A stretch of 64,000 nucleotides of DNA from Paramacrobiotus metropolitanus (Eukaryota; Tardigrada; Eutardigrada; Parachela; Macrobiotidae), in NCBI RefSeq assembly GCF_019649055.1, contig NW_026570318.1, positions 372,001 to 436,000 on the forward strand, written 5' to 3'. Below are positions 29,518-64,000 of this stretch, piece by piece. The notes beneath the pieces were generated by a model that was given only the letters and a program-made list of their open reading frames with translations, searched no databases and was not told where the DNA came from. The position numbers were made by a program, and so were the translations under genes. Positions within the stretch are counted from its first letter, which is position 1. Every line of letters starts with the position of its first letter.

Positions 29518-31162
29518 AGGGAAGGAATCAACTTGTTCAAATTGTCTCTATTCATGCAGTAATAAATTTGCATTTTATTTCTCGAGCTCGTTGCATCAAC
29601 CGCTATGGATTTAGTTGTGAAACATGTAATAAATCTCGAACTATTTTCCAGCTATGGTCGAGTATGTAGTAGTACATAGTTGTTGTAATTTAGCAAACTA
29701 ACATTTGGAAATATCGCAAAATTTCGGCAAAAAAATGGCGTTGTTAACTTGGTGCACGACGCATGGAAAGAACTGAGCTTCCGTTTCCTGTTCACCGCAA
29801 TGCTTAGCATGAAGCCGCTCTAGAGCATAGTGGTATTCCATCACGTACTGCAGATCTTTCACGAGGCGGTTACGAATTTTCGAATTTGCTTGATATTTGT
29901 TATCAACTTATCAAGCATCACTAATAGCATAGCTACATAAGCAATCGACTAAAAACTGCAGTTACAATTTTTGCATGAATATCCTAATTTGAAACGCTTC
30001 ACAATCTCTCCAACTAGAGAAATAATACGAGATAAAACTCCGTCCCGATTTCCAATACACTCTGAACTCTGCCACATCTCGAAACCGCGAAATGTGACCT
30101 CTCAGAAACCGTACAAGAAGCAGCTTTCCCAGATCTCCCTAGTCGGTAACTTCATTTCTTTATATTTTGCATTTCTGTGGTAATTTTTACAACTTTTGTC
30201 CATGCTGACTGCAAACTTCGGTTTTCTTAGGTTTCTCAATGTACAGATACAGTTTGTATCTGTACATTATTCGATCAATGTTCACCAGTTGTTGCACGAT
30301 CTATCACTCAACATGCACATCAGTTCCTACTTGTTTTCATGGCCGAGTACGGAACGCCTGAATTAGCAATTCCAGTCCGCGATGGTAACAGTACTGTGAC
30401 GCATTTATTCTGCCAACGACAAGTTCCACGTTCCCGCTCCTCCTGCATGCTGTTTTAGCCGTGAACACCATTTTCCAAGGAAAATTTATTAAACATTAAA
30501 AAAACTCAGAAAACCTTCGTAAAACTCGAAAGACCAATAAAATAGTTAGAACAGAACGCCGGTTAAGAGAATTCACCAAAAGCGAACCATCGGTCAACGA
30601 TTTGCCGGTTCACGGTTATTCGATCAAAAAATTATCAAGAAAAATGAAGGCCGAAAGACTGACGATGCTACCAGTACCAGGATATCTTATTCTGTGTTGT
30701 CTGAGACTGAACAAAATGGAAACGGACAGGTTTTCATTACTTTTCAAGTAATAAAAGCTTTTCAGGCCAGAAGTATGCCAGTACTGTATAAGAGACAGCT
30801 GCAAGGTGAGCTCAACAAAAACTACAACAGAGGTCACAAGGCTGGTCGAAACTCTGCCTATTTAGCCATGTCACGACTGACCCAACCAGGCCAGCAGTAC
30901 ACGTTACGATTTATTCACCACGTAACCCACGTGCCCAAGGCGCAGAGCTCCTTATAAAGCTTTGCAGTTTTCAACGTTCTAATCGTTTTAAAACTTATTC
31001 AAAATTTTAATCGGTTTTTGGTTTAATTTAGCAACGTGAATTAAATTTTCGAAAACTGACCTTTGCACATAACTAGTACAACGTATAACACGAAACATCG
31101 ACCTGCCAGTTTTACCCGTGCTTTCCCTTAACTCGATTTTACCAGAATTTCACTGCTCCAAA
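29518..31162. other. Intergenic; hairpin and duplicated 5' flank
   Basis: AATGTACAGATAC and its exact complement form a 13-bp-arm hairpin at 30238-30268. Near 30800-30900, GACAGCTGCAAGGTGAGC and the following AAAACTACAACA resemble about 41036-41090, upstream of copy 3, so the duplication unit included upstream DNA. No gene is supported. Confidence 0.45.
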
Positions 31163-33067
31163 ATGTCGACATTTTTGGGTGTGGAAGCGTTTCGGGATTC
31201 ACAAATTTCGACTTTACTGCAGAAAGCCAATTCTCTCAAAGCTGCTCGTCGAGAATGCGTGGATATATATAAAGGTATCACCATCTACGTAATTATTATT
31301 TGCGATTCCTCTGGATCCACTTGATTTCCTTTTCGGTACCTTATAATCGTTTGATCTGAAACTGTCAGATAAAATTTATTGTAAGACTTGCCTTACGCTT
31401 GCTCTGGCAATAACTGCTCTAATCTTTACTTTTTAATTGACGTTTACCGGTTTTGGAATAATCCACCCTTTACCCACTATATTAGAGCATTTCACGGCCG
31501 TCAAAAAACACGTTTTCGGAGTGGAAGACCCCAACCAGCCCGCTGAAAACGCGGGCGCCAGCCCCGAGGAGATTGCTGCCGAAGATAAGGAAATTTTGGA
31601 TAAGTCCCTAGAGGAGCGACAGCAGTATTTTGCGCAGCTGTACGATGAGGCTACCAACTGTACGTTATCAAAACGACGTAACAAACCAGCTCAGCCAAAA
31701 TTTTATTTAATTAATGAATTTATATTATAATTTTTCACATTTACATTCGCATTACACTCTGAAGTTGTGAGCCACCGATCACTGGCCCCTCGAGTTGTAG
31801 ATTATGTGATCAACTGCTGAACGAATACTAGCAGCATGTCTGATTGGCGACAAACCGAGAACTCACCTGCCGCATTACATGAGGAATTAGTTGCCGATTA
31901 ACCTATAGAGTATAGATATCAAGTATATAAACGAATTTCCCGAAATCTGGATCGATGACCGGTTCTACTGTAGATCGATTATTCGATATGTGCTCCGAAA
32001 ATGATTGGTAGTTAAGGAGTAAATAGTTCGCTTACTTATCAGTTCACTGTTAGGAATTAATGAAAATTAAGTGCTACCCAATCGTCCTCTTACATAAGTA
32101 TATACAGGTAAACAATTCGAGCAATGATGACTTACGCTTCATATGCAGTGTTAGTACGAGTTATATGACCATATGGAACTAAAATAAAAATCTGTAAAAT
32201 GTACCATCTACAAGAAAACGTTAAATTGTTCATGCTCCTCGCAGCGTACCGCGGGTCACGGGAGATTCTGCGGAAACTGTCCAGTCTGTTGCGCCGGATC
32301 ACCAATGAGATGCTGGAGGTTTTCGATCATTTGATTAACTTACAAGTGCCGGAAGCACGTCAGTGGCGGCACGATGCACTAAGGGCTTCTCGGCAGCTGG
32401 ACGAGCTTCAAGGTTACAATATTATTCTAATTTTTTTAATAAAGCTTGAAATAATAGAATCTTGATTGAAATACATAAATATCAGAATCTAGAGTTAAGT
32501 TAAAGTTAAGAATAATTAATTTTGGAAGTTAATTGTATAAAATCATCCTGTACATTAGCCTGGTAACCCATTAGCCTGGTAAGATATCTTCATCTAGGAA
32601 AAGAAACCAAATTTATGTTAATCTGCTCATAGCCTGGTGGTAGTACGTCTGGCTTTACGATTGTATGTCCTGGGTTCGATTCTCAGGTTGGGTAACTTTT
32701 ATCTCATAAAATCAAACAAACAAACGTATAAAATTTCAAAATGAGCCAAAAAAATTTTCCATTAGCCTGGTAAGATATTTTCATCAGCTTACGCTGAATA
32801 AGCTGGCTACTGTGGGAAACAATAATAAAAAAAACACAGAACGCATCGTATATACCTCGTAAAGTAGTAGTAGTAATGATTCGTGAAGCACGGTGTTTTG
32901 ACAATAAATGACGAGTGACACACTTTGCAGATAGCTTGATGTCCTTCCACAAGGGATTAATCAACGATCAGCAGAAGGCTGTGAAAAAGATGGAGGAACG
33001 TTACATGAGTACTACAGCCGGAACAAACTCCCAAGCTTCTGGTACCGGGACGAGCGACCCATTGTGA
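31163..33067 (+). CDS. Uncharacterised helical protein, copy 2 (intact)
   Basis: Exons 31163-31274, 31486-31659, 32245-32412 and 32931-33067, all joined in phase 1 with GT/AG borders, give 196 residues. I do not recognise the family. It has no signal peptide and no membrane segment, so it is probably cytosolic or nuclear. The sequence is strongly helical and charged: LLQKANSLKAARRECVD (exon 1), an acidic exon 2 with ASPEEIAAEDKEIL, exon 3 LRRITNEMLEVFDHLINLQ with VPEARQWRHDAL, and exon 4 QKAVKKMEERYMS before a Ser/Thr/Gly tail. Spacing of hydrophobics suggests a helical bundle or coiled-coil adaptor. Exon lengths 112, 174 and 168 are identical to copy 3, which supports real, constrained genes. 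An upstream in-frame ATG at 31118 has no match in copy 3. Confidence 0.75.
32590..32785. other. tRNA-like B-box sequence between short direct repeats
   Basis: Within intron 3 of the helical gene, CTGGGTTCGATTCTCAG (near 32671-32687) folds as a T-arm and matches the RNA polymerase III B-box; TAGCCTGGTGGTAGTACG upstream resembles an A-box. I cannot fold a complete tRNA, because the acceptor and anticodon stems fail. ATTAGCCTGGTAAGATAT with TTCATC flanks it at about 32570 and 32762. Possible tRNA-derived SINE fragment. Confidence 0.3.
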
Positions 33068-33470
33068 AGCAGCCATGCTGCTTCGCGTAGATGCAGAATT
33101 TAATGCTGTACTTCTGCGGATTTTGTATTACTGTTTCTATGCCGGCTAGATTTCGCTGTGTGCATAAATGAGGGAGGATCCCACATTTATGCATTCCATT
33201 AATATTATTAATATTATGTTATTAAATCGTTATATTATTATGCTATATTATTATCGCATGCGTACGAAGAATAAGACATACATACCGACATTAAAATTGT
33301 TTACAGAAATGTATATCCAAATTCTCTAAAGCAAATATTTAGATAATTTCACAGAAGACAGGCAGAATAAATAACGTAAAGTTAATTAATGAATTTGCCA
33401 TCGTCAATGTACTTATCCGCTACCGACGGCCAGTTCCAACACCATGGCAGTGCCAATATGTACCGTAATT
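33068..33470. other. Intergenic, AT-rich
   Basis: ATTATTAATATTATG-type simple sequence near 33200-33260. Nothing else was seen before the TA-flanked element at 33471. Confidence 0.4.
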
Positions 33471-33926
33471 ATCGAATTTGCACCCCTGGGGTGCAAATAG
33501 TTCAAACGTCCTGGAGGAGGGGGGCTTATTTCGGGGAGGGGCGTTATTTCGGGGGGTGGTACTATTTTTCAAACAGCTTTTTTTCCGGAGGGGGCCTTTA
33601 TTTTTCAAACAACTGGGCATCCAGTTCGACTGATACTGAACGCAGCAGATACCGGTATTTGCAATTACACAACCTTACGAGCAGCATTCCGAAGCCACGC
33701 ATCACATTATTTTTGTGACGTTTGTCTGCTTATACATTAAATCATAACAATTATGGTGAAGCAATTTGCGGTATATCTATCATTTTGTGGCGCTTAACAT
33801 TTAATAACGCCCCCTGGGTGGTAAATTCGGGGGGAGGTGCTATTTTTCGAACGGGTTGTGGGAGGGGGGCTTATTACGGAGGGGGGCCTTATTACGGGGG
33901 GAGGTGCAAATTCGATAATTACGGTA
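33471..33926 (+). mobile_element. TA-flanked G-rich inverted-repeat element, copy 2
   Basis: TA, CCGTAATTATCGAATTTG, G-runs with GGGGCTTATTTCGGG, a unique core containing GAACGCAGCAGATACCGGT, more G-runs with GGGGGGCCTTATTACGG, then CAAATTCGATAATTACGG and TA. It is the mirror-orientation relative of 21703-22197 over its whole length. Open frames inside (YFGGWYYFSN, GGGLITEGG) are translations of the G-rich repeats, not proteins. Confidence 0.8.
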
Positions 33927-39602: not shown

Positions 39603-41855
39603 TACTGATGTGGGTCGTTTACAACTTTACATAGCTCTAATTTAGAAGTGGGAGTGAAGCCCGTTTTATCCACCGTAGTTTTAACTACACCATTATTACA
39701 TTAAGAACAGACCATTCGATTAACTGGACTTCAACGTATGGTCGATACAAGAGAGCTAACTTCAAGACAGATCAACGATTCAGAGAGCAAAATTTAAGAA
39801 AATGCCATCACCATCGACATTGAGTATCTTTTTGTCAACGTTTTGTGTGCGCTCAAAAGTATCTTTATGTCGAATCTCCAGCATGCCTTTTTCTATCTTC
39901 TTCTTCACCGGTGCGACAATTTTTGTTGGGTTCGGCAAGGTATATGGCGCTCTTACGTTCGTGAAGTCTATCATTTCGACTAAATACGGCGGCGGATACG
40001 GCGGCGCTTCGTAGCTGTAGATCTTGTACAGCCACTCCGCTTGGACTGCTTCCAACAATATTATGATATTGTACAATCCGGTCCGGAGATGAAGCACGAT
40101 AGAGAAACAGCTAATGCATAATAAGCGCGATGGACACTAAACTACTTTTACCACAATACGTAAATGCGCTCCGCATGTTACATGCGGAGCGCTTTTACGC
40201 ATAGATTGTCTCTCACGGCACCGACCGTTTTCTAGCCACCTTCCGCCAGACAATTACGATTAAGGGTATATTCAATAAAATAAATGCCGAGCAACCAGCC
40301 ACCAGCCAGCCAAACGCATGTTACGTGTTTAAACAGTGAGGCGCGGTATGTTGTTTGGCGTAACTCATGAACTTACACATTGTTCGTTGTTCTCTATCAT
40401 GCTCTATCTCCGGACCGGCTTGTACATACATATTAACTGTAAACACTAAACATACAGTTTAGACAGTAGAATATTTCACCCGAATTAAAATGTTGTAGTC
40501 ATTGTAAGAATTAGGCATATTCTAGAATTCGGCGTCAATCGGCGCAGAAATAAGCTAGAATAGATAAATCACACGGGCACGGTAATTTATTTTAGTTCAT
40601 TTCTTCCGCGCAGAATGCGCGGAGTCTACTGGTGCAAAATAATTCTAGTCGATGTTTAACTGTACGGTGCAACAAATTCTGCCGTTCACCCCTTTGTGGT
40701 TATGTGGTTGTCATCGTTTCCAGCCGAGACCCGCTTCACAACATTCATCTAAATATATTACTATGATGGCACAATAGCCATAATATATTATACTAATAAT
40801 TTTTATGGATATTACTAGGGGATTATGAAGCTTTTATGTTTTTCCTTCAAACTGTTTTGAAAGCTCCGAACACGCTGTTGTTGCCAGCGTACAATAAATT
40901 GTTTCCAGAGATGGATGTCAAACAGTACAGTATATTATTTAGGTTATATGTGGTGGAACAAAATTAGCGCAGTCTGTGCAGGCGCCAGACATAATCGTTC
41001 GCGCGGACATCCGTTTATTACTGTACTCGTAGTTTGAACAACTGCAAGGCGAGCCCATCAAAAATTACAACAATCAACAATGGCGACAGTCCAGCATGAT
41101 CAAAACCATCCAGCATGATTATCAAGGTTTCGACTGGCCAAGCAAGCCAATATAACTGGAACTCATCGCTAAGTGATTGTGACCAAAGCTGGTCTTATCA
41201 GCAAAGCGGACTGCGGAGCTCCGTTGAGTTAGCATATGAGCCTCAAGTAATTTCTCGTACAAGATGGAGGGATGGGTCTGCAGTACGCCGTGTACAAAAC
41301 TTTGCGTCGAAACGGATGCACCCTTTGAAAAAATTGTTAATCGAATCAGGAAAGCAGTACAGCAAGTTCCGTAAATCGTTCAATTCGTTGCGGCTGCCAT
41401 TGTCTGTTCCTCTTGTTTCTGGAACAAATGAGCATTGTCCGTTTACTGTGACCAGCAGACATGTGCAGTGATGGGCGATGGAAAAAATGCACAAACACTC
41501 ACTTGTTAAGCCATTTCTCATGCAATCAAATTTCAACAACTGCTAAAAGAAGCTGGTACGAGTTCTCTTCCAATCAGCGGAGTTGGATCGTGGAAGTGGC
41601 CGTGGCTTCCAAATTTTGTATATTTTATAGGCTTTGTTGAGGTCCACTTGTCCAGATCTCCAGACTGCAGCGCTCCTTATAAATCAGTGCCTTTCTTAAG
41701 CTTTTCTGATTGTTCAACAGATGTCTCCCGCCTAATTGGGCAAGGCGTTTTCCAATTTACAGCCTATAATAGTGTCTGTTTATGACAAAGTTTTTTTATA
41801 ATTTTCCCCAAAATTCATTTTGCCATCCACAGATTGTACTGTCCGATGCTAGGAG
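39603..41855. other. Intergenic, one weak ORF and a hairpin
   Basis: A perfect GCGCTCCGCATG / CATGCGGAGCGC hairpin, extended by flanking pairs, lies at 40159-40199. The 41036-41090 part resembles the upstream DNA of the helical gene copy 2. A minus-strand open frame at 39780-40097 is listed separately. Other open frames (41115-41471 and its complement) have no support. Confidence 0.4.
39780..40097 (-). CDS. Weak candidate small gene, unknown
   Basis: A 105-codon frame with one hydrophobic stretch (GLYNIIILLEAVQA) and a Pro-rich part (APPYPPPYLVE), then a Lys-rich end (PVKKKIEKG). The composition is more protein-like than most chance frames here. There is no paralogue in the window, no recognised motif and no splice evidence. 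Confidence 0.25.
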   Translation of the reverse strand: MLHLRTGLYNIIILLEAVQAEWLYKIYSYEAPPYPPPYLVEMIDFTNVRAPYTLPNPTKIVAPVKKKIEKGMLEIRHKDTFERTQNVDKKILNVDGDGIFLNFAL

Positions 41856-44779
41856 ATGTCATCGATGTCAGATAGTGTAGCGGTTCGGAATTTAACAATC
41901 GCGGCTTTACTGCATAGAGCCAATGCATTGAAAGCCGCCCGCCAAGAATGCGTGGACACATTCAATGGTACCAATAAAATTAACATTATTTCCTTAATGA
42001 TTCGATTGTTTTCTGTATCTTACAGCCGTTTTTGAGCTATACAGTGCCAATTATTGTGGCTTATCTTGTTGTAATCCACAATAATTAGATTTACCGTTGA
42101 TACTACGCCTTTAGAACACATCTTCACAGTTTTGGAGACAGGTAGCCATTTTTGTCCACTGTTTTAGAGCATTTCGCGAACGTAAAGAAACACGTTTCCG
42201 GCGTGGAAGGCCACGAGAAGCCTGGAAAAGTCGTCTGCGCCAGCCCCAAAGAAATGGCTGCTCATGAAAAGGAGGTCTCCAGTAAATCATCGGAGGAGGG
42301 ACGCCAGCATTTTGCGCAGCTCAGCGACTTGACTACCAAAAGTAAGTAATCAAATGTAAACTAGGGAAGTGCACCGCTTTAGGCTAGCACTATTAGACCG
42401 AAGCGAAGCCGGAAACTGAGTGTTGTACAAAAATACTTAGGTTATTTTTATGTAGTTTTAATACGCAGTAGCCATCAAAATAACAAAAAATTGCAAGCGC
42501 TGGCATACTACTTTACATCACAGTTAAAATTTGAACATTAAAAATCGATGTTATTTTATGCTGATTAATGTTGATAAATACATAATGTTATGTTGATTAG
42601 GTATTTATTTCGTATTAAATATTAGGAAATAGCTATTCTTATCGCCCTGACACCACCTTTGTAATGTCACCACCTTTCACCTCGTTTTTGCTATTCGCAC
42701 CATCTTTTTTTAATATTTCTTACACCACCTTTAGCTATTCTCACCACCTTACGTCTTTACTGCATTCGGCTATTGCCATCTGTTTTCGCTCCATGTTCTC
42801 ACGCGTGAAAAGCCAACATTAATAAAACTGGATGCGATTTCCCGCAATTGCTAGTGTGGATTACCGCTTTATCGCACGTAATGCCTTTACTTTTGTGTAA
42901 CCAGGTTATCGCTCAAGCTAATGTGAGCGGGAAATGTTTTCTTGTGCAGTTTTCGAACTTGTTTTCGGACTTGGGAACATTACTGCATGACCGACGGACA
43001 GACAAAAGCGCCGCAATGTTGTACTTATAGGTCTTGCGCTGTATGTTTTCTATAATACTCAAATTCATACAATAAATACGACAATTTTTTTAATATATTT
43101 AATTTTTATTTATATTTATTTTATTCTTAATTTTCTTATTTTTATGTGACCGACGGACAGATTAGTGCGTGACCGACGGACCAAAAGTAAATCAAAATAT
43201 GACAAAACCGTTGCCCTTTATTTACAGGGCGCACACGCCAAGTTGTTATCAAAACTTTTTAAATCTTATAGTTTTCTGATCAAACCGGAAGTATTTGTTT
43301 AATTATTGTTTTTGTGGTTGCTATTGTTACTTTCCATCGTTTGAGCCATAAACTGCCACATGTGAGCGGGCTGCGATTTGCAGCTACCGAATACAGAGTA
43401 CTTGTATATCAGTTTTCTTGCCATCGCGAAAAACTGTTTTTTGCATTTGCTTTTTAGGTTTTTCTTGCAGTCGTCGATAGTTAACATTGAATCGGAAAGT
43501 TATGTATGTCCCATCTACTTTTAAATCGTTCAGAGGGAATCCTTGCCTCAGATTTTCTAACAATCTTGTGAACTTATAAAGGTCTCGGGCATCTACAAAA
43601 ACCTTTTCGGCTCTCGTACCGTATAACATTCCCAGAGCGGGGAAAACTTTCAAAAAAATGTACCTTTTGTGGTTTAATGGTTCCATTGCGTTGGTTCTCT
43701 TCTGCAGTGCTTACTTAATGTATATTTAGCTTATTAAAACCAATTTCAAATTTCAAGCGAGAAAATGCTTTCCTGGTTTTCTTATAACTTCAGTATACAG
43801 TTCAGTGCTGACCGGCCACAGAGACGCCACCAAAGATCTCACTTTGGATCTGCCTTCTGATATCAGTTTTAGAGCTAATGGTCAGATGCTGATTTAGAAA
43901 AACGCAATAGTTGATTCTGTACAAGAAACAAACATACAAACTGGAGTTAGGGAAACTCTTTAATTTTAAAAATGATCAACTTTTTAATGACATCTAGGCG
44001 TGTGCTCCCTGGCAGCCCCTTCATATCTATATAAGGTATTGCTTAACCCGTCACCGATGTACTAGTACACGGAGATGAAAATATTCAAGACGTGCTAGAG
44101 TACCATATATTAAACTCATATCTAAGTGACTCATATCTAAAGCCTGAATGACTCATTTATGACTAAATGTCTCAAGTATGGTTTATATGCCATAATTATG
44201 TGATATGGCTCATATCTAAATATAAGTGGATATGAGATGCGTAAGTCTCAGAATATTGAATAATCTGCAGTTAGCAATAACTATTACGTAATAATTTCCC
44301 GTACAGTACTACGTACTTATAGCGCATCACGAGTCAAGGGATGTGCAGCAGAAACTCTCCAATCTTACGCGCCGAATTACCAATGAGCTGTTGGAGGTTT
44401 TCGACCAGCTGATTAACCTGCAGGTGCCTGATGCACGCCAATGGCGCCACGATGTTTTATTGCAATCCCGGGAACTGGAAAAGATGCAAGGTTACTATTT
44501 CTACAATTTTTTTAATAAAAACCTTTACTTTTGAAAGTTCATGAAGGACGTAAGAATAAACCAAAGCGGTTGTACGTTACTCGTAAGCCGCTAAACGGCA
44601 TACTGAACATCGCATACGAGTTTCTCTAGATCGTTGTTTTGCCATCAAATGACCGGTTTGCAGAGAGCTTGGCGGCCATTGACAAGGGATTAATTGATGG
44701 GCCGAAGAAAGCCGTAGAGAAGATGGAGGAACGCTATGCCACAGCCGGAAAAAGCTCCAAACCTTCGGGCAGCGAGTGA
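41856..44779 (+). CDS. Uncharacterised helical protein, copy 3 (intact)
   Basis: Exons 41856-41967, 42168-42341, 44323-44490 and 44664-44779, all phase 1, give 189 residues. It matches copy 2 exon for exon: ALKAARQECVDTF, EHFANVKKHVSGVEG, RRITNELLEVFDQLINLQ, VPDARQWRHDVL and AVEKMEERYATAG. Two in-frame ATGs (41856, 41865) give MSS or MSDS starts. Identity across all exons with conserved intron phases argues that both copies are expressed proteins. No signal or membrane segment is seen. Function is unknown; a helical scaffold or adaptor is a guess. Intron 2 (42342-44322) is almost 2 kb and holds simple repeats and an antisense open frame. Confidence 0.75.
42645..42775. repeat. Simple repeat CACCACCTTT
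   Basis: Imperfect tandem CACCACCTTT/GCTATTC units inside intron 2 of the helical gene. Nearby, TGACCGACGGACAGA recurs at about 42988, 43147 and 43170. Confidence 0.6.
43384..43686 (-). CDS. Weak candidate nested ORF, unknown
   Basis: A 100-codon antisense frame inside intron 42342-44322. It looks protein-like (KVFVDARDLYKFTRLLENL, then TYITFRFNVNYRRL and a Lys/Arg-rich end) and starts at an ATG preceded by AAGCACTGCAG, a possible acceptor. No motif or paralogue is recognised. It may be a decayed transposon gene, a nested gene or chance. Confidence 0.25.
   Translation of the reverse strand: MEPLNHKRYIFLKVFPALGMLYGTRAEKVFVDARDLYKFTRLLENLRQGFPLNDLKVDGTYITFRFNVNYRRLQEKPKKQMQKTVFRDGKKTDIQVLCIR
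44105..44235. repeat. Simple repeat CTCATATCTAA
   Basis: GACTCATATCTAA-type units recur imperfectly just upstream of exon 3 of helical gene copy 3. Confidence 0.55.
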
Positions 44780-48749: not shown

Positions 48750-49134
48750 TTATATGTGATTTCGTTTCGCAAGGATCTGGTAATAAGGAGGCCAGAGCTG
48801 CTTTTTCATATCACGCGGCAGCGGTTGTGATGTGACGGTCGTTCTGTGATATGTAACTTTTAAAGATCGCCGCAACACGGTTACTTTCTGATGACGTAAC
48901 GCATCTAGAAGTTAACATTGTTTTTTATGGAAATTGAAAGGGGTTTGCTGTTATCGCGATGATGGTACAGACATTTGCTGCAGCAGTACAATACTGAGGC
49001 ATAGAAACCTTGTCTTTGATATTCGCACGCCGAGACCGTGTCTCGGTAGCGAAATGCCATCATTTTCCCAGTGCCGGAACCAACGGAGACAACTTGAAAA
49101 ATTTGTCCTCCACTTGTGGTTATCGGATACAACT
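48750..49134. other. Junction region replacing the receptor 5' end
   Basis: No receptor similarity is visible here, although the following gene should have about 150 bp of N-terminus and TM1 at this place. The open frame leading into the receptor (from 48934) is Cys/Arg-rich and unrelated. Confidence 0.4.
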
Positions 49135-49999
49135 TACCCGCAACTCCGCACCGGCTCGGGTATCCTCGTCGCGCATCAACAGTTCTCGCACACCTTGCAA
49201 ACCGGCATTACCAATCCATTCTACATGGCAACGGGATGGATTGTCTGGTTGGGATTGTCAATTCGCGGAGTCAACTGTACCGTCATGTATTTTTTCTGCC
49301 GAGTATTCACGTACACGGAAATCTACGCATCACTGTTTCTCGCCGTTAACCGTTGCATCGCCTTGATCTTCCCGCACCGCTACATTTTAATATCGCCAAA
49401 AAGAGCGGTTATCCTGCAGATGCTGCTGCCATGGGAGGTCGCCTTGCTGCTGAGCCTGGGTTGGGTGGTGCCGGGTTTCTTCGGGATCGGGAGCATTTTC
49501 GGGAACCGGAAAACGGACTGCGGACATATCGGTGTCCCGTCTGCTCTGATCACTGACACCGTAGCCAGCCTTGGTTTGTGTATTCCGTTAATTATTGAGG
49601 GACTTTGCTACGTCACGGTGCTGATCCATCAGAAGAAATGAGCACCGAACGAAGTGTCCGTCACACATCGGAAACGCTTCGTTATGTTCCGTTTGTTGTT
49701 GGGCTCATATGTATGGTTCTTGGTGTGCTACCTGCCGCAACCGATTGTCAACTACGCCTTCCCACAATTCTGGTTTGAGAATAAGGTCCGCGCTGGATGG
49801 TTCCAGTTTGTGCAAGAAGTAGCGTATGCCGGAAGTCCGGTACGTCAATTGTATTGCAGTTTTTATTTTCTAGGGTGGTCTTTTTATTTGGTTTCTTTAT
49901 GGTGTACTTTTCCAGGTGTTCCTCTTGTTATTGAACAAAGATCTTATGCGGGACATTATGGATAGCGAAGGGCGTGTACGTTCTCGTTTAACTTCGTAG
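49135..49999 (+). pseudogene. Broken array-family receptor, 5'-truncated with stop
   Basis: Similarity to the family begins abruptly at PQLRTGSGILVAHQQ, so the start codon and TM1 are missing. TM2-TM5 are well preserved, including NRC in place of NRF and KTDCGHIG. An in-frame TGA at 49639-49641 (VLIHQKK-stop) interrupts the third intracellular loop; the same frame then continues SVTHRKRFVMFRLL through TM6. The family splice sites (donor 49840, acceptor AG at 49914-49915) and last exon 49916-49999 (VFLLLLNKDLM) remain. Its close match suggests recent loss. Confidence 0.85.
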
Positions 50000-52005: not shown

Positions 52006-53183
52006 ATGGAGAGGAGTGCTGTGGTAGGTGGGCGGCAGTTTGTAGCGTCTGTTCTCTTATACAGTGCGTTGCAATCCACACGTGCTCTCGCTGACAGCGA
52101 AGTACCGTTTCATGGATGCGATTATAACCGGTATAATTACCTGGAGTGCAATACCGACACCTTCAGGCTGATGGACACGCTAAACCTTTCCAGCATTCCG
52201 AAATGGATGCAAGGCGTCCGTTTCTCCGGATCCTGTCACAATTACAGCCATGGTACCCATTGTTACGGATTACCCCCGAATGTAACCCCATTACCGCGCC
52301 GCCCTGGATTCTCTACGTACGGTGTTCACTTTGCCGGATTTAAGGCAATGGACGGTGGCAGAATTCCCCTCAACCGCTTTCTAAGCGAAAATAAGGACGT
52401 CATCAGGTTCATAACGGTTAGCAACAGTCATATTGGGTATATTGATCGGGAATTATTTGCTGGATTTGCTGGACTTCGGAATGTGAACCTTCGAGGAAAC
52501 GACATCCATAGCATCCGCGCGGATGCCTTCGAAGGTTTGACTGACGGAAGCGATCTTCAGCCGGTACTGGTGGCGCTTGATCTTGGTGGTAATCGGCTGG
52601 AGCAATTTGACTGGAGTGCGCTGCATTCATTAAAAGATTGCTTGGTATGTATGCTTAACGCTTCAATTTTTAAATAAGTAAATTAATATTTTAATTGCTT
52701 TTATCAGTTTCTAAATTTTATAAATCCAACCGAAATTGTAAACTGAATTTGTAGGAGCACCTAGATTTAAATGAACAGACCCCTGGATTGACGTCGATTA
52801 CCCGTAGCGGCTCGAGCACCTTTGCCACTCTTATGCGGACGTTAGATTTGCGAAGAAACCGGTTACAATCCCTTCCTGACTGGCTCCTGTATAATGTAGG
52901 TCTTGATAATTCCAGTTTACGATCTTTTGACTTTCGCTACAACGCCTTCTGCGAAAATCCGGCTGAAGTTATCCATGGTTGCGGCTGCTGTGATTTGAAA
53001 AATTTGGTTCGCTGGGCGACGACCGTTAAATCCAATTTTATCAACGAGTTTTCGCGGCCATCCGTCTGGTTCAGCATGATATGTGAAGATAAACCAGTAC
53101 AGTTTACCTATGACGCCGTGAACATTGCTTCGGGTTTCGCATCATCAATCGCGCTGCTGGATAACACACTGAAGCATTGTTAA
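52006..53183 (+). CDS. Secreted leucine-rich-repeat protein 1
   Basis: Exons 52006-52644 and 52755-53183 (phase 0) give 355 residues. The ATG at 52006 gives a signal peptide (hydrophobic FVASVLLYSAL, ending near ALA) and lies just downstream of a TATA box; upstream in-frame ATGs do not. A Cys-containing N-terminal cap (HGCDYNRYNYLEC) leads to LRRs: FITVSNSHIGYIDRELFAGF, LRNVNLRGNDIHSI, LVALDLGGNRLEQFDW, then in exon 2 LRTLDLRRNRLQSLPDW. A cap of LRRCT type follows (NAFCENPAE, HGCGCCDLKNLVRW, ending in a final Cys). There is no membrane anchor, so the product is probably extracellular. LRR proteins bind protein or glycan ligands, often in immunity or adhesion; the partner is unknown. Confidence 0.85.
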
Positions 53184-53634
53184 CTGTAATACTAATAACT
53201 GAACAATTCGTTCATTTTTAAATTTATATCATGGCTCATGCTCAGCTTTAATTAAATTGTACCTGTACTTCTACCGATATTTTTTGGCCATGGCATAATG
53301 AGAGTGAAAGTTCTTGGATTTTTCAGCGGATTTATTATTGTTGCGCTACTGATAACTAACATGGTTTTTAATAAATATGAAGTGGCGCCCTCGCGTCTGC
53401 ATCGCTATTGCCCTTTAAAAGGGTGTCACTGTGAAATTATATTAAAGTCTGTGCAGTTATGCGAATGGTAGCGTTTATTGTTACAAACGTGGCCTCAGCT
53501 TTTGTCGTACATGTGCCGATTAAATTCTAGCCGCTTGACGATGGTGTCGTACACAAATATACAGCATAAACCGGAGAAAGCTAACCACATAAAAACAGCA
53601 CCACCTGTATATACGATAACAGCCTGTTCGTGCT
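53184..53634. other. Intergenic, nothing recognised
   Basis: The 3' flank of LRR gene 1. No gene or repeat was seen before the TA-flanked element. Confidence 0.4.
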
Positions 53635-53912
53635 TACCGTAATTATCGAATTAGAGCCCCAGGGTTACAAATATTTCAAACGCCCCACGGGGTGGGCTCC
53701 AATTACGGGCATGGGCTTGTATTTCGGAGGGGGCTTCAATTTTTCAAACTAACTTTTTTGGCGTTCGCTAACATGGGCTATATAGCATTTAATTAGCCCA
53801 TGGGCTTATATTTCGGGGGGAGCTTATAATTTTCAAATGACTTTAAGGGTGGGCTCTAATTACGGGGGGAGCTTCTGTTTCGGGGGGAGCTTATAATTCG
53901 ATAATTACGGTA
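53635..53912. mobile_element. TA-flanked G-rich inverted-repeat element, copy 3 (short)
   Basis: TACCGTAATTATCGAATT at the left and AATTCGATAATTACGGTA at the right, with GGGGGAGCTTATAATT and GGGCTTATTTCGGGG-type units between. It is about 278 bp, shorter than the 456- and 495-bp copies, lacking their unique core. The TA flanks match the other two. Confidence 0.75.
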
Positions 53913-55081: not shown

Positions 55082-56094
55082 ATGCCGAGACAGCGCAGAA
55101 AGAGCTACCAGTTTTTACCTATGTAAAAGTTAGAAACTGACGCTTCGTATGTACAGTGTACATTATTTTAAATTGTTGCAGTTATTTGCAGCTATGTTTG
55201 CATCGGATTAACATTAACGTTGCCTAATCGACGTACGTAATTGTTATTTGCTCTTGTCGATTTCACAGTAAAAAAATTACTTTGTGTTGTTTTTGGCTGG
55301 CTGGACCTCGGCTCATGAAAAAATAGTTTATTCAGATCACAATCGGCGCATCCAAATCACATATCTCTTGGCCTCCGCGTCTGCACGTAAACAGCACTTT
55401 CTTATAGAATTTTTTATTAACAAGCTAACCAGTCTATGTACAAAACGCAAGGAAAAGTGCCTTCTAATATGTACAGAATCTACAGATGTATACAAACAAC
55501 GCCAGAAACGACCGTTGTTTCCGTGTTTAGCGTTCAGAAGAGCCCTGGTAATCGATCCGACAAACACTAAAGCACAATGCGTCTGTTGAAACAGCCTCGT
55601 GCCTAGTCTGCAAAATTTTTACAGTTCCGGCAGTTTTTTAGCTGCACTGATTTCACTACACCTTTAACAGTGAGCCACTAAGCAAACCAAAATACGTGAG
55701 GCACATAACAGTATCTGTATACTGGAACAATGCAGAGATACTCCGTTTATAAAGATCGATAGATTTAGATTCCCCGCTTTCATAACGCCGTACAAATGTG
55801 ATGTTTCAGAATTAACGAAACATTTATTATACGGATGCCGCTTCATTTTTTTCTCGAATAGACGAAGACACTCAACGTAAGTGCTACAGCGGGTCCAATC
55901 TTCCGGTAGTATTCACGACGTGCAACATTTACATTTACCTAATGCTCAGTGCTAAATCGCTGCCAAATTGCATATTAACATTTTGCTTCCGTTTCTTATC
56001 TCTTAAACGTGCGCTAATAAATTTAAGAAAATTATTGTTTCTGTTATTAGTGCACATGTTCCTTTTCTTAATAGTGTTTACAGGCGGTATCGAA
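55082..56094. other. Intergenic, no supported gene
   Basis: An open frame at 55284-55589 lacks a signal, motif or paralogue. A 3' acceptor (TTTACAG at about 56081) shortly before the next ATG implies a 5' UTR intron for the following gene. Confidence 0.35.
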
Positions 56095-56436
56095 ATGGAT
56101 GCATTTTGTCGGCCGTGGATAGCGTATTTGTTGGCCCTGCAGATTTTGTTTGTCGCTACTTATGCGGCCTCCATCTCGGATTCTCGGGTGGCACGCGCAG
56201 TCCCGTCAGCCGCTGATCCCAAACTGCAAGGCGTCATGCAGCTGTGCTTCCAGCCGTATTGGCAGTGTTTGAAACCGGAAAATCTCATGCCAGAGAAATT
56301 AGACGGCGGTAAACCCCGTTTCAAAGCTGATACGATGAACGGCATCGCCGATTCTTTTAAGAACTACATGAACTGCTTGAATCCCTATCTGGAATGCCTG
56401 ATACGCGTAACAAAACCGGGAAGTGTTGCAACTTAA
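56095..56436 (+). CDS. Small secreted protein with paired C-x6-C motifs, copy 1
   Basis: A single coding exon encodes 113 residues. The ATG at 56095 is chosen because it opens a good signal peptide (WIAYLLALQILFVATYAAS) right after a splice acceptor; the frame also extends upstream to 55942. The mature part has two conserved boxes, CFQPYWQCLKPEN and NYMNCLNPYLECLIR, each holding a C-x6-C pair, separated by about 40 charged residues. Two disulfides joining two amphipathic helices are likely. I do not recognise the family. A paralogue lies 1.1 kb downstream. Confidence 0.7.
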   Translation: MDAFCRPWIAYLLALQILFVATYAASISDSRVARAVPSAADPKLQGVMQLCFQPYWQCLKPENLMPEKLDGGKPRFKADTMNGIADSFKNYMNCLNPYLECLIRVTKPGSVAT

Positions 56437-57588
56437 GAACGCATGGCGGCATACCGGCTGGAAATCTCACATCGAGCCGACATCAGTCACACTCAGACCG
56501 AACTGACAGAATGCTTACGATGCAACGTCTTTTTTTTGTGATCATATTATCAGCTTGTATTCCATCGCGTTACTGTACCTGTACGGTATAAAGCAGTTTT
56601 AGCGTTTGGTCTTTTCTGCTTCCGCCAAAATCTGAAAACAGCTTACGCTGTTAATCAGGGATTTATAACGGGATTTTCAGTTGAGTTGCAATTATGACGA
56701 GTTTCCTAAATTTTTCTTGGCTGCTTAATACGTCTGGACTCTGCATTACTAAAACTGCATACCTGTCGCAGTTTGAGGAATTGATGATGATAACAATTGT
56801 AAATATTAAATTTGGATGGTGGAGAGCAATACAACAAACTAAACAGTCCGTATACAGCACACGTGTTCTAGCTTTTGCATATCGATACATCTGTCTTAAA
56901 TTGTTTTACCAGCTGTTGCTCTTTGAGACCACTGATGTTGCACTAGAAGTATTACAGACACAAATTCAGGTATAAGCAGCTACACGTAAACTCAAGTTTA
57001 CTCAATAAAGTAAACAAATCAAATTTTTTCTTCACTGTCGACGGATGTGCTGCAGAAACAGCAGCAAAATACCAGCCGCATCGGGTTGTAATAAGAAAGC
57101 TGCTAGAAGAAATGCGCCGACAAAGAGACAATAAACCTTTGTCATAAACAGAAATTGTGATTTCAGCAGTTTCTTTGTAGCCAGCAAGTTTCATCAACGG
57201 AAACCGTATGTGTTAATTGCAATAAAGGATGGCACGGCAAGTAAAGCTTGTAAACGATCGAACACTGCTACCTGCCAGTAAATGGTCTGTTTTACGTTAA
57301 AGACAACCGTTGGAAATGGTGTCTAGAGAATGCCGTGAAGTGTTAACAAAATTAAGTAAAGGAAATACTCAAGGTAAGCGTCCGTAAATCGATATAAAAG
57401 ATATTTGTACCGTTATGTGTTTGTTCGATAGATATTCTTCTATTCCAAAATCAAATTAACGTTTTCGCACCGGTCAGTCAATAATACCAAAACGAGAAAC
57501 TACATTGTTTACGTCATCTGTTGTGGTTGACAGTCAACAATGGACTGGTACTACAAACCGCCACGAATTTTGTGCAACGTTGTTGCTA
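56437..57588. other. Intergenic, no gene recognised
   Basis: Short open frames on both strands (56694-56975, 56952-57197) have no support. It may hide a 5' exon with the signal peptide of the following gene. Confidence 0.35.
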
Positions 57589-57939
57589 ATGAAGTTTCTA
57601 TGGATAAGTGGCCGTTCATCGACCTTCGCACAACGCCAGATCGACCGGTCAACACCGCGTGGCGATAGCCATAATTGCAAAACGGTGAGCGATTCCCCGG
57701 AGTGCTTCCGACCCTACTGGAGGTGCATGAAACCCGAGAACACCCTCATACTAGAAGATCCGACCGCTGACCATGACGATAAAATGGAGAAACTTAGCGG
57801 CAGTGTCGGTACTTTCCACAATTACATGAGCTGCTTAAATTCTTATCTGGATTGCCTTGTACGCATATCCATACCTGGTACCGGACAATATGGAGACAAG
57901 AAGTTGGTTGTCTTGAAAGGAAGTCGCCTGGAGATATAG
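57589..57939 (+). CDS. Small protein with paired C-x6-C motifs, copy 2
   Basis: Paralogue of 56095-56436: CFRPYWRCMKPEN and NYMSCLNSYLDCLVR align box for box, and the charged spacer is of similar length. The first in-frame ATG at 57589 gives 116 residues but a poor signal peptide. Either a signal-peptide exon lies upstream, the protein is not secreted, or the copy is decaying. An extra Cys (SHNCKTVS) precedes the first box. The C-terminus is extended (GDKKLVVLKGSRLEI). Confidence 0.6.
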   Translation: MKFLWISGRSSTFAQRQIDRSTPRGDSHNCKTVSDSPECFRPYWRCMKPENTLILEDPTADHDDKMEKLSGSVGTFHNYMSCLNSYLDCLVRISIPGTGQYGDKKLVVLKGSRLEI

Positions 57940-58622: not shown

Positions 58623-60831
58623 ATGTACTCCTTATTCACTATTATGGCGCCTGCAAGATCACCGGACTGCATGACAATCGTATTGGTATATTTGTTGTAC
58701 AGCACATTTCAGTTTTGTCAAGTTCCTTCTGCCAACTGTGAATGCATTTCTAATTACACAAACGGCTGGAACGAATATCATTGCGATACCAATATCTTTA
58801 GGATGATGGCGGCGGTGAACGTCTCAAAAATTTCGGCTCTAGTGCAGATGGTTTATTTTTGGTGTAACCTGCGAGGCACATATTGCTACGGGTTGCCGCG
58901 GAATGTGTCTGCTCTGCTGTTTCTAGGCGTGTTATATAAAATGACCTTGGAAGGATTAATTGCCACTGATGCTGACAGGATTCCCATCACCCAGTTTCTA
59001 GCTAACAATAAACATATCATAAAGTTTTTGGTGATTAGAAATAGCCATATTAATAACATCGACCGAGACTTTCTCGTTGGGTTTTCAGTGCTGCGCACCC
59101 TTGACTTGAGTCACAACGATATTTATTCTATCAGTGCCGATAGTTTTGAAAGTTTAACGGACGGCCTTCCGATTTTAAATAGCTTAGATCTGGAGCATAA
59201 CCAATTTGAAGAATTCGACTGGAGCGTAATTTATCCATTAAGAAACTGTTTGGTAAGTTGTTACTTCCGGTATCGTTATAATGTGTATAGAAATAACGAG
59301 GTTACGAGCTTTACATGCAATTTGGGGGCTACGGCCCACTCCAAAGGAGAAATTAGCAGCAAAGAAGGCCGCTGGATTTGATCAAATTCAAATTTTCTTG
59401 CTATGAAGCAGCCAGAATAGATACCTTTCCGAAAAATATTTAGGAGACCCTCCGTCTCGTGAATCAACAACCAGGGTTGCGCAACTTATACCACAGTGGA
59501 TCCACCTTTCAAACGTCTATCCAGCTGTTATTCCTGGGATTTAATCGTCTAACATCAATCCCTGACTGGATTTTATATAATATTGGCCTGAAGAATTCCA
59601 GCATGCGCCTTTTCAGTTTTCACTCCAATGCCTTTTGTGAAAATGCTGCCGAGGAGAATCCTGGTTGTGGTTGCTGCGACATGGAAAATTTAGTGCGCTG
59701 GACGCTGAATGTTTCTAGCGAAATTTCGCCGCCGTTGATCTGGTTCAGCTTGAAGTGCGGGATGTTCGTGAGGACAATTACTAATGACCCCAGTGTAGTG
59801 GCAGCCAACCATGGTTTCCCAATCACGACGCTGGGGAATTCGTTCGAGCATTGTAATATATTTAGGCAATAAATCGAGCAAGTGTTTCAAAATTTAGCCG
59901 TTTCTAAATCTTACGAAATGCAGGCCAAAGCAAAACCACAACCAAGTTGCCGCCAATAATCACCGTCCTTTCCACTTTTAAATCACCATCTTCTAATACC
60001 CACGTAATTAATACCGACTTTCGTTGCGAAAATGGAAACTCGCTCAAGATCAACTGTTCCGCGGGCCGTTTGCAACTCTCGGAACCTGACCTGTTTCGTG
60101 CCACGGCCGCCGAAGCCATTTTCTCTAGTGACGGAACATTCAGCTGCATCAGCAAGCTCTACGATCTCCACTTAATGGTGCTGGAAATGCTGGAAATCTC
60201 TCCCCGGACGGAACCGATGACTGGCCGCCAAGATATCATCCAGGTCCAATGTCGAAACCGGCTCTTTAGCATCAACACACGTGACCCGGAAACGTCTGGT
60301 GCTAGCAAACTGGTATTCCGCACCGATTTATATCCTCAATGCTTTGATAAATTCACACATTTTCTTCGCTACATCAACGACAATTTCATCACTGAAGCAG
60401 AAGTTGCTGCTCCCGACTTAGTAGTCGAACACGAGTTTTCTTTAAGCGCCGGGAAAAATTGCAGTGGGTCCAATTTGCAAGGAGACATTGTGTCGGTTAA
60501 CTGTACAGATGGAGTCTTTGTATTTTCACACAACAACGACTCCGCCACTGCCGCGATTGGTGTCACAGTTCGCAGTGACGAATCTTTGGACTGCCGCGTG
60601 ACTTTTGCAGCGATCCACGAATACATCTTGCACGAAGCGGAATCTACTATCTACGCACCGGATGTACCGTTGCCCAAAGCCATTGTTGCCGTTTGCCATA
60701 ACGGTCATGGATTTGTATCAGAAGGCCAGCCACGGCGATCTAAGAAACTGGTGCTGGAGTACTTCTCAACGCCAAGTAGACGGTGCCGTGATACTTTTAT
60801 CCGGTTTTTAACGTATCTTTTCAAATTATAG
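58623..60831 (+). CDS. Secreted LRR protein 2 spliced to a four-repeat domain
   Basis: Exons 58623-59252 and 59444 onward match LRR gene 1 (exon 2 is 429 nt to its stop in both). If the second exon stops there the protein has 352 residues. However, CAT-T|GTAATA at 59853 is a usable donor and ATGCAG at 59921-59923 an acceptor. Joining them restores the final cap cysteine and opens 302 further codons to 60831 that have no start codon of their own, giving about 648 residues. Domains: signal peptide (MTIVLVYLLYSTFQF), LRRs (LRTLDLSHNDIYSI, LNSLDLEHNQFEEFDW, LLFLGFNRLTSIPDW), LRRCT-like cap (HSNAFCENAAE, PGCGCCDMENLVRW), then four repeats of about 75-95 residues, each with a first Cys (FRCENG, VQCRN, VNCTDG, AVCHNG) and a second about 30-50 residues on. 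The repeat part could instead be a separate gene with an unseen 5' exon. Confidence 0.6.
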
Positions 60832-61509
60832 CCCTCAATTTTCTAGCTTTTTTAATATTTATTTCAGTTGAAATGTATGGCTGTGTTCATTGTCAAGTAA
60901 TATTTCTGGTCGTTGCAAATGCACGAAATGTCTGAGCGTCGGGTATGAACAAACTAATATTATTTCCATTCACATTATTTTTCGATCTCAAAAACAGCAA
61001 ACAACTGATTCACGGATAATCGTAGCTCTTACTTATTTGGCTTATTTATTTTTAGTTGGCTTGTTTATTCTATTACTGCATTAAGGGAATGGAATCAACA
61101 AGTATTTTAGTATTAATTATTTATTTCTAATGAACTGGATTGTACTGTAATACGCAGAACCTGGATGCTGATGTAAATAAACGCTTACATTGCGCGTTAT
61201 AACAGGAATTGTAATTCTATTTTGTGTTATGATGCTATCGAAGAAGACGATTAACAAATACGATAATCAGCAAAGACTTGATTATTTTTCAGCTATCGAC
61301 AAAAGTTGGCTATGTAACAGTAGTAATTTCGCTCGCTTTTAAAGTTAAGTGAAACAGCAGTTATCATACGCCGCTTTTGCTGTGTCACGGACACGATGAA
61401 CACAGCAAAACCCAAAAACGTCTTTATAAAGACGCTCTCTCAATGAACAGCTGTCCAGTGACTTCTGTTCTAGACACTTTCGCCACCCGGTTTTCCTTCT
61501 TTCGTTACA
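60832..61509. other. Intergenic; duplicated promoter of LRR gene 3
   Basis: From about 61135 the sequence resembles 51650-51960 upstream of LRR gene 1 (GATGTAAATAAACGCTTACATTGC against GATGCAAATAAACTTTTACATTGC). A 64-codon open frame at 60890 is unsupported. Confidence 0.45.
61375..61432 (+). promoter_or_regulatory. Palindrome plus TATA box, LRR gene 3
   Basis: TTTTGCTGTGT (61375) and ACACAGCAAAA (61400) with a 14-base centre, then TATAAAGA at 61425, 85 bp before the ATG at 61510. It is nearly identical in arrangement to 51880-51937. Confidence 0.55.
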
Positions 61510-62831
61510 ATGCGCGCGACGCTTGCGCGACGTTGGCAGCTTATAGTACCTGCCATCCTGTTCAGTGCGTTTGAATCAGCGCACGTTCTCGGCGCCAGCG
61601 AAATAACCAATCATGACTGCGCCTATAACCGATACAATGACCTTGAGTGCTATGCAGAAGCTTACAAGCTTAATTATGGACACGCTGAACGTTTCCAGTA
61701 TCAGAGCATCGGCACAAGGTGTCAGTTTCAGCTGCCGTAATTCTCAACGCGGCGCCTACTGCTACGGATTATCGCCGAATGTGACGCCTTTGCCGCGCCG
61801 CCCCGGATTCACCACATATGGTGTTTCCTTTGACGGATTCAACGCAACGGATGGCGGCCGCATTCCTCTCAACCGCTTTCTAAGTGAAAATAAAGACATC
61901 ATCAGATTTATTACGATTCGAAACAGTCAGATTGGGTATATTGATCGGGAATTTTTCGCTGGATTAGCGGACCTTCGGAGCTTGGATCTTCGCGAGAACA
62001 ACATTCGCAGCATCACCGCGGATGCCTTCGAAGGTTTGACTGACGGAAGCAGCTATCAACCGGTGATGGTTGCGCTCGACCTTGGGTACAATCAGCTGGA
62101 GCAATTCGATTGGAGCGCACTTTACCCGTTAAAAGACTGTTTGGTATTCCTTTTCAAAACTTACAATAAAGTTTAATCTGAATTTAACATTTTTAACTGA
62201 ATTTTGTTTTTAATTCAAGAATTTAGAACTTCTAGAAATTTTAATTTTTTGTCTGCGTTTTCGTGACTAAGCATGTTTTTACATTGTAGGAGATCCTCAA
62301 TTTAAATCACCAAACAACAGGACTGAAGACGATAACCCGTACCGGCTTGAACACTTATGCAAGTCTTCTTCGGGCGCTAGATTTGCGAGGAAACCGCTTA
62401 CAATTCCTTCCTGACTGGCTTCTGTACAACATCGGTCTTGATAGCTCCAGTTCACGATTTTTTGACTTTCGCTACAACGCCTTCGCGAAAATGCCGCTGA
62501 AGCTATCCATGGTTGCGGGTGTTGCGATGTAGAAAATTTGGTGCGCTGGGCGAAGAACGTCACAGCGGATTTCGTCAATGAGTTATCACGGGCATCTGTC
62601 TGGTTCAGCATGGTTTGTGGAGAAAAACCAGTACAATTCACTTATGATGCAGCGCACATTGCTTCCGATTATGCAACCTCTATTGCGCTGCTGGAGAACA
62701 CGTTCGAACATTGTAAGCCAAAAGCCAGTAATGAATTCTTCATTACAGTATTCAGTTTCGAATTAATTCTGTATAAATTTTTACTGGTGATCTTTTTACG
62801 TGTAGGCGGCTCTACAGCTGTTTCCCGCTAA
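61510..62831 (+). pseudogene. Frameshifted secreted LRR gene 3
   Basis: Closest relative is LRR gene 1. Exon 1 (61510-62143) starts with a good signal peptide (WQLIVPAILFSAF). An extra AATT at 61672-61675, directly before ATGGACACG, shifts the frame in the N-terminal cap. The LRRs then continue in the other frame (LRSLDLRENNIRSI, MVALDLGYNQLEQFDW). Exon 2 from 62290 lacks one base near 62494 (TTCGCG for TTCTGCG), destroying the cap Cys and shifting again. The rest (ENLVRWAKNV) is open to 62831. A donor T|GTAAGC at 62713 and acceptor TGTAG at 62805 bound a 93-nt stop-free intron. Two indels point to a pseudogene, though sequencing error is possible. Confidence 0.75.
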
Positions 62832-64000
62832 CGGCCCGGCCTCCGACGCTGGCATTATTTGCTTTAATGACCGGTTGCCGGGAGAACTTTCCTTTTATGC
62901 ATGACTGAAATTTGCTACCCGGTCACCGCCCTGGGCACGGCCATCTCCAAAAACCAGATCAGCGCCACTGACCGTGGAATACCGAGAAATATTGACTTTC
63001 CTTCGCGAACAGTTCTTAGATTTTTTCTCTCAATACTGTATGTGCTCATGATAAATCCTTCTGAACGTATTTCTCTGACTTGTGAGCCTAATTATAAAGC
63101 ATAGCAAAACAGGCAATATACGAAATAAGTTTCCATCGACAGCCCTCCTTCCATAATGGGTTAGGCAACAAAAGATATTTGGTTGTGCATTACTTCAAGT
63201 AACAGAGATGCAACTTAGGAAAAAATCTTTTTGGAATGTCTCTTTGTAGTTATAGCGAAACATACATTATTTATACGTTATTTATTGCAAACGTTCTATT
63301 GTATATCACATACGTTATTTATGTACGTCATTTAGATGTCGGTTAATATAACGTTGGCAGGGAGTACTGCAAATACAAGTACTAAGAAAACAAAAAAGCG
63401 GAAGACATATTGATAGGCTACTTTGTACTGTAATACGGTAATTCTATATAATCTCTCGTATTTTTGCAGATATTGTATTCTGCGTTGATGCACCTCCAAA
63501 ATCGAAGGTGATGACGAGCGATATTTCGATCAGTAACTTAGTATTTTTGTGAAGAAGCAATACAGCAGAAATTGTAGCAAAGTAATATTAGCACTAACAG
63601 CAGTACATATATAATAAAAGCTGTAAGGAGCAAATAATATTGTAGTGATTATCGGTGCAAATGCCGCTCGACTGTTTCCTCATTCTAGAATAGTATTTTG
63701 ATAACAAAGCGGTACGAATTCTATGATTTGCTCAATTTATCTTTATTGCCATAATAACGACGTTGTAACAACGCTTAATAATTTGAAGAATGTAGTGAAA
63801 GATTTGTTGTTGCAGACCTTACATTGCGATACATTTGTATTACGAACAAATGACAAAAACTACATCAGCAACGTGGCACTTCGTCACTTCCGTGTGCTAT
63901 TGCGTTGCAATCTGCATAACTGGGATCATGGCTGATAAAACGTTGATACCGTTTATGTTTCAAAGCAGAACCTGTATTCGTCTTTGTTAACATAATGACG
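62832..64000. other. 3' flank, no gene recognised
   Basis: Short open frames (62901-63104, 63723-63935) have no motif, paralogue or splice support. The end of the window is AT-rich. Confidence 0.45.

Follow-up and report, generated by a model that had tools for sequence, protein, structure and literature searches.

Where does a leucine-rich repeat (LRR) gene of the tardigrade Paramacrobiotus metropolitanus end, and to which gene does the long open frame directly behind it belong? The question concerns LRR gene 2 in a stretch of 64,000 nucleotides (nt) of this genome (NCBI RefSeq assembly GCF_019649055.1, contig NW_026570318.1, positions 372,001 to 436,000 of the forward strand), which we refer to as the window and whose own numbering we use throughout. 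A preliminary description had joined the LRR part to a four-repeat domain by a 71-nt intron. That fusion is also the best-supported gene model in our analysis: LRR gene 2 and the repeat domain are probably one gene, linked by a proposed phase-1 intron, although the donor of gene 2 is weak and we infer the fusion from the sequence.

A proposed junction inside the last cysteine codon

The window is animal DNA, with rhodopsin-family G-protein-coupled receptor (GPCR) genes, a neuronal-type basic helix-loop-helix gene and extracellular-type LRR genes (assigned with Pfam; the GPCR copies by self-comparison). It holds three LRR genes, all on its + strand: gene 1 at 52006-53183, gene 2 at 58623-60831 as proposed here, and gene 3 from 61510. 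Our model of gene 2 has the following parts, with a slash at each exon-intron border.

58623-59252, + strand: exon 1 of LRR gene 2, 210 codons with a phase 0 end; hydrophobic N-terminus, Cys-rich N-cap and LRRs
59253-59443, + strand: intron 1 of gene 2, 191 nt, TTG/GTAAGT ... TTTAG/GAG; position conserved in genes 1, 2 and 3
59444-59852, + strand: exon 2 of LRR gene 2, with a phase 1 end; last LRRs and LRRCT-like Cys motif, the final base being the T of the last Cys codon
59853-59923, + strand: proposed intron 2 of gene 2, 71 nt, phase 1, ATT/GTAATA ... ATGCAG/GCC
59924-60831, + strand: proposed exon 3 of gene 2, with the four-repeat domain; the junction Cys is followed by 301 codons and a stop

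Exon 1 matches the Pfam family LRR_8 (E = 1.5e-10, 41.2 bits against a cut-off of 27; region 58623-59378), it has matches to extracellular LRR proteins among PDB sequences, and it is 44% identical to exon 1 of gene 1. Exon 2, 50% identical to its counterpart in gene 1, has no separate Pfam match, and Pfam finds no LRRCT in exon 2 of either gene 1 or gene 2. Genes 1-3 share a GCGCC...C...HC motif at this point, which we take to be LRRCT-like.

The LRR frame (59444-59872) ends in HCNIFRQ and a TAA stop at 59870-59872, and 51 bases (59873-59923) separate this stop from the proposed repeat exon, which begins behind the acceptor GCAG/GCC. The repeat frame is open from 59908 to 60831, 307 codons without a stop. 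The G of the last TGT, at 59853, is the first base of the proposed intron (donor T/GTAATA), and joining 59852 to 59924 keeps the frame while T and GC form a TGC that restores the last LRRCT-like Cys. Counting that Cys as residue 1, the downstream part has 302 residues, and the three exons joined give a single frame of 648 residues. The 51-base spacing, the start of the repeat frame directly after an acceptor and the in-phase 71-nt intron that rebuilds the Cys had all been pointed out before, and proved exact letter by letter.

The preliminary description also held that the repeat frame has no ATG. In-frame ATGs are present, but the first, at 60175 (residue 85), lies after both Cys of repeat 1, so the claim survives in a narrower form: there is none before the end of that Cys pair. 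A protein translated from this ATG would be truncated and lack a signal peptide, so an upstream exon is needed. Because exon 1 ends in phase 0 and the repeat frame wants a phase-1 donor, exon 2 is the sole compatible exon of gene 2.

Where the repeat frame opens, at 59908, both the LRR frame (closed at 59870) and the third frame (closed at 59895) have already ended, so that no single indel can join the LRR and repeat frames. This bears on an explanation that we regard as extremely improbable, namely that the repeat frame is decayed or open by chance, or that an assembly indel has split one continuous gene. Other copies in the window do look broken (gene 3 through frameshifts, two GPCR copies through in-frame stops), but that explanation would have to account for the positions of the frames, for 307 codons without a stop and for four repeats with exact C-x29-C spacing.

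A matching intron in a paralogue

Genes 1 and 3 allow the same boundary to be examined in two further copies. Splice sites were scored, with leave-one-out tests, against a reference of 18 donors and 10 acceptors from paralogue-conserved exon ends (GPCR tails, LRR intron 1 and a second tandem family), one of them from a single secreted-looking gene.

52006-53183, + strand: LRR gene 1, with exon 1 at 52006-52644 and exon 2 at 52755-53183; stop right after the homologous last Cys (TGT TAA)
61510-62712, + strand: exons 1 and 2 of LRR gene 3, with intron 1 at 62144-62289; apparent frameshifts in exon 1 (near 61675) and exon 2 (between 62487 and 62505)
62713-62805, + strand: intron 2 of gene 3, 93 nt, ATT/GTAAGC ... 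GTGTAG/GC; codon and phase match those of intron 2 in gene 2, T and GC giving Cys
62806-62970 (3' limit approximate), + strand: third exon of gene 3, probably decayed; the strict frame stops 7 codons past the Cys (CGSTAVSR and stop)

The donor GTAAGC at the homologous Cys codon of gene 3, reported earlier, is indeed there, at 62713 (score 5.82). The acceptor at 62806 is a new observation beyond that earlier reading and the strongest support for the fusion, with a score of 8.75 that places it in the top 0.7% of AGs. As a chance control, we checked the remaining 1268 TGT sites of the + strand for a donor paired with its best acceptor at 40-150 nt and a Cys restored by the join, with the genes' own scores as thresholds; none of these sites reaches the scores of gene 3. 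An intron ancestral to genes 2 and 3 is well supported.

Read without splicing (62713-62831), gene 3 runs as HCKPKASNEFF... into a hydrophobic stretch (KD19 2.21) and a short tail; with the intron retained, the product would be an LRR-membrane protein. We rank this membrane segment below the intron on account of the Glu and Lys inside the stretch and the high-ranking acceptor at 62806. The G+C content is raised over the third exon (0.48-0.53 in three 90-nt windows, 62760-62969), which suggests a decayed exon and does not indicate the identity of that exon.

Gene 1 has its closest relative in gene 3, with 75% identity over the 155 codons of exon 1 compared; gene 2 is 52% identical to gene 3 and 44% to gene 1. 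Between genes 1 and 3, the nonsynonymous and synonymous distances (dN and dS) are 0.16 and 1.02 in these 155 codons and 0.14 and 0.90 in 75 codons of exon 2, a dN/dS of about 0.16 at which the LRR codons of both genes look constrained. Since gene 3 has apparent frameshifts and its LRR codons still look constrained, either this copy is a young pseudogene or the assembly contains errors here.

What makes the fused gene the best reading is the conjunction of an in-frame join that keeps the Cys, a repeat frame without a usable start, frames that no single indel can join and the matching intron of gene 3. The spacing of only 51 nt between the LRR stop and the repeat exon and the similar codon usage on either side also speak for it.

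Weighing the fusion

A number of observations weigh against this gene model, and the first is the donor of gene 2. The reference donors have G at position -1 in 12 of 18 cases and G at position +5 in 12 of 18, and all 18 have at least one of the two; ATT/GTAATA has neither. It scores 3.04; of all GTs in the window, 19% do at least as well, and among the 18 reference donors 16 score higher and two lower. The acceptor at 59924 (score 3.48) is within the top 8.8% of AGs and the best one 30-400 nt downstream of the donor, and the join 59853/59924 ranks second among 31 in-frame joins. The join that ranks above it, 59814/59924, scores higher (7.24 versus 6.53) but deletes the last LRRCT-like Cys, and among the in-frame joins only 59853/59924 keeps that Cys (the comparison covers the joins with donors from 59850 on, and eight further joins use donors upstream of 59601). 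At 71 nt, the proposed intron is just below the range of the reference introns (n = 10; 72-191 nt), which include a short class of 72, 74, 74 and 76 nt. In the chance control, 16 of the 1268 TGT sites match the scores of gene 2, so the junction letters of gene 2 alone are weak evidence.

In codon usage, the repeat frame scores 0.055 bits per codon, next to 0.033 and 0.096 for the LRR exons of gene 2 and -0.216 and -0.291 for the other two frames, after training on a set rich in GPCR codons. The non-coding controls (mean -0.128, s.d. 0.096, maximum 0.222) span the value of the repeat frame, which by itself is thus no proof of coding.

The paralogues contribute two further difficulties: gene 1 is without the intron, and significant repeat similarity was not found downstream of gene 3 or gene 1. 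For the intron, presence in the common ancestor and loss in gene 1 would be the simplest history. The earlier suggestion that an exon at this point is ancestral to the family accordingly divides in two: its intron part is strengthened, with a donor and an acceptor in gene 3 in the same phase, but its repeat-exon part finds no significant support. Behind gene 3, the DNA alignment with the repeats scores 25 (shuffle mean 26.2) and the frameshift-tolerant alignment 27 (shuffle mean 33.5), and pieces resembling the repeat helix, picked out by eye at 62806-63050, were dropped after a six-frame profile search of all frames found nothing.

Downstream of gene 1, the DNA alignment scores 26 (shuffle mean 26.3) and the frameshift-tolerant alignment of 53184-53530 scores 25. 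The next segment, 53531-53876, scores 42 in the latter test, above all 37 native control windows (maximum 39), a score reached by 2 of 200 dinucleotide shuffles and by 32 of 722 other windows on both strands. Its core is a gapless 24-residue match at 53545-53616 with one stop inside (CRTQIYSINRR... versus CRNRLFSINTR... of repeat 2), and begins 14 nt past 53531 (score 6.96), the acceptor-like site that ranks highest behind gene 1. We treat this core as a possible relic of a repeat exon and a weak candidate, a lead only; with 32 of 722 windows as good and three stretches tried, it is statistically insignificant. A true relic would support an ancestral repeat exon.

There is, finally, an AATAAA at 59868-59873 on the + strand, which overlaps the LRR stop inside the proposed intron, as would be expected of a separate LRR mRNA. 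The + strand of the window has 82 such hexamers, or about 0.09 expected per 71 nt, and the first one after the repeat-domain stop is the following.

61176-61181, + strand: AATAAA

This signal can be accommodated within the fused gene if it makes two mRNAs, a short LRR-only form that ends in HCNIFRQ through intronic polyadenylation and a long LRR-repeat form through splicing. We consider such a sub-case rather unlikely. It would fit the weak donor, the AATAAA within the intron and the LRR-only protein of gene 1, which stops at this very Cys. Against it, gene 1 has nothing equivalent to the tail NIFRQ, and the signal has to be set against the 0.09 occurrences that chance alone provides in 71 nt.

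The same signal at the LRR stop and the same weak donor could also mean two separate genes, an explanation that we hold to be unlikely. LRR gene 2 would then end at 59872, and the repeat gene would take a 5' exon with start and signal peptide from elsewhere, or be trans-spliced in an operon-like pair. The 51-nt spacing resembles the intercistronic gap of an operon, but is too short for a promoter and a first exon. Also against two genes are the lack of an ATG in the repeat frame before the end of the Cys pair of repeat 1 and the matching intron at the same codon of gene 3. The fused gene, with splicing of 59853-59923, remains our preferred reading.

A domain of four two-cysteine repeats

If the fusion holds, what does the third exon encode? 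The domain consists of four repeats of about 65 residues, each with two Cys exactly 30 residues apart (C-x29-C).

60025-60213, + strand: repeat 1, Cys 45/75
60220-60408, + strand: repeat 2, Cys 110/140
60472-60660, + strand: repeat 3, Cys 194/224
60664-60828, + strand: repeat 4, Cys 258/288; reaches the C-terminus of the protein

The stop of the frame, at 60829-60831, falls at the end of repeat 4. When the repeats were compared in pairs against shuffles, five of the six pairs had p < 0.05 (repeats 1 and 4, p = 0.93), with segment boundaries chosen by the Cys residues, which favours the pair scores; the four repeats of the preliminary description are borne out. The Cys pair of each repeat presumably forms a disulfide, and three sequons in the domain overlap Cys residues (NCS, NCS and NCT).

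The domain has no match in Pfam or in NCBIfam (a prokaryote library), and no convincing one among PDB sequences, where the best E value for the single protein is 0.23. A profile of the four rows reached designed TIM barrels at E = 0.02 across 19 positions only, which we take as chance. Searches with the repeat pattern gave 28 stretches in the species genomes of GTDB and 19 in IMG/VR, none of them confirmed as a relative, and megablast of 59444-60831 found no match among phages; the silence of these prokaryotic and viral collections says little. A word search of open-access titles and abstract starts returned, among the matches listed, no LRR protein with such repeats, and is not a claim of absence in print.

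Structure prediction with AlphaFold2 gave a predicted local distance difference test (pLDDT) score of 32 for the whole domain, modelled without relatives. A single repeat with the four rows as input was tentatively modelled as three strands and a helix (beta-beta-beta-alpha) at a pLDDT of 50. Foldseek with this low-confidence model returned no match below an E value of 2.4, and we claim no fold.

The predicted protein and its closest analogues

We picture the following course. Gene 2 would be transcribed as a three-exon mRNA. Splicing would take out the 71-nt phase-1 intron, which interrupts the final Cys codon of the LRRCT-like cap, and append the domain of four two-Cys repeats to the C-terminal side of the LRR ectodomain. 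The LRR part may bind a ligand or target, and the repeats may act as a binding or oligomerising stalk, by analogy with the C-terminal additions of other secreted LRR proteins.

The product is most likely secreted and soluble, judging from its hydropathy. A hydrophobic stretch from residue 16 (KD19 1.54) is a putative signal peptide. The six 19-residue windows with the highest hydropathy in the protein (1.32 and above) all lie outside the repeat part, in which no membrane anchor is evident. Counting against solubility, residues 95-113 of the LRR part form another hydrophobic stretch (KD19 1.64), slightly above the N-terminal one and not hydrophobic in gene 1, so that the product may instead be membrane-bound.

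Among the classes of a survey of the extracellular LRR (eLRR) superfamily are LRR_Only and LRR_Other, the latter comprising proteins with some further domain, 23 of whose 63 members it lists as secreted (Dolan et al. 2007, PMC2235866). Gene 2 resembles eLRR proteins in its hydrophobic N-terminus, Cys-rich N-cap, Pfam LRR_8 repeats and LRRCT-like cap. It differs in that its added domain has no Pfam or NCBIfam model and no convincing match among PDB sequences. Two Anopheles proteins, APL1C and LRIM1, reportedly carry their extra non-LRR part at the C-terminus, where gene 2 has its own. They are described as secreted immune LRR proteins whose extra part oligomerises or binds a partner (PMC10898737). 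That part is, by the title of a paper cited there, a coiled-coil domain, unlike the four two-Cys repeats of gene 2 with their weakly predicted beta-beta-beta-alpha arrangement. A soluble secreted LRR protein of this kind, whose LRR face binds a target, is the closest working analogy.

The position of the intron invites a second comparison. Phase-1 introns at module boundaries are given as the usual mark of shuffled extracellular modules (PMC8001218). Like the class 1-1 modules of that account, the repeat domain of gene 2 would be extracellular and, if spliced as proposed, would have a phase-1 intron exactly at its 5' boundary, in genes 2 and 3 alike; unlike them, it lies in the last exon without a 3' intron, and no introns separate its four repeats.

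Other features of the window

Between LRR genes 1 and 2 lie two related, small, secreted-looking proteins (55816-56436 and 57460-57939; motif CF-P-YW-C-KPEN, 31% identity, E = 8e-21); the one at 55816-56436 was tested against Pfam and has no family above the cut-off. The GPCR genes form a group of at least six related copies on the + strand, of which two were tested with Pfam 7tm_1. Two copies are apparently interrupted by in-frame stops: 48916-49962 (stop at 49639-49641) and 5791-6327 (stop at 6103-6105). A second multi-exon gene family has at least three copies (28695-29211, 31073-33064 and 41853-44776) with conserved donors, AAG/GTTA. Related G-rich stretches at 53620-53793 and 33386-33715 (translated pieces 44% identical, E = 1e-5) look like copies of a repeat element and not like genes. 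The segments 17062-17543 and 19888-20245 share tandem-like repeat blocks with 29-codon units in several frames, perhaps a satellite or a piece of a transposon.

Implications

An LRR ectodomain with four such repeats is an architecture that the preliminary description did not recognise, and we find it plausible that it is a new domain combination, with an unnamed repeat, in a known superfamily. In a more far-reaching proposal, the two-Cys repeat (four copies of about 65 residues, C-x29-C) would be of a kind not described before and would have been added to the receptor-like ectodomain of a secreted LRR protein by way of a phase-1 intron where the LRRCT-like cap ends, with the weak donor and the intronic polyadenylation signal acting as a switch between LRR-only and LRR-repeat forms that became fixed in the short state in paralogue 1; taken as a whole, we consider this quite unlikely.

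If the fusion is true, an unnamed repeat domain joins the modules that are attached to extracellular LRRs, which leaves the general picture unchanged. The three tandem paralogues would then present three states of one boundary (an intron with an open exon, an intron with a broken exon, and a stop at the Cys) and form a small natural series on the gain and loss of a tail at the LRRCT boundary.
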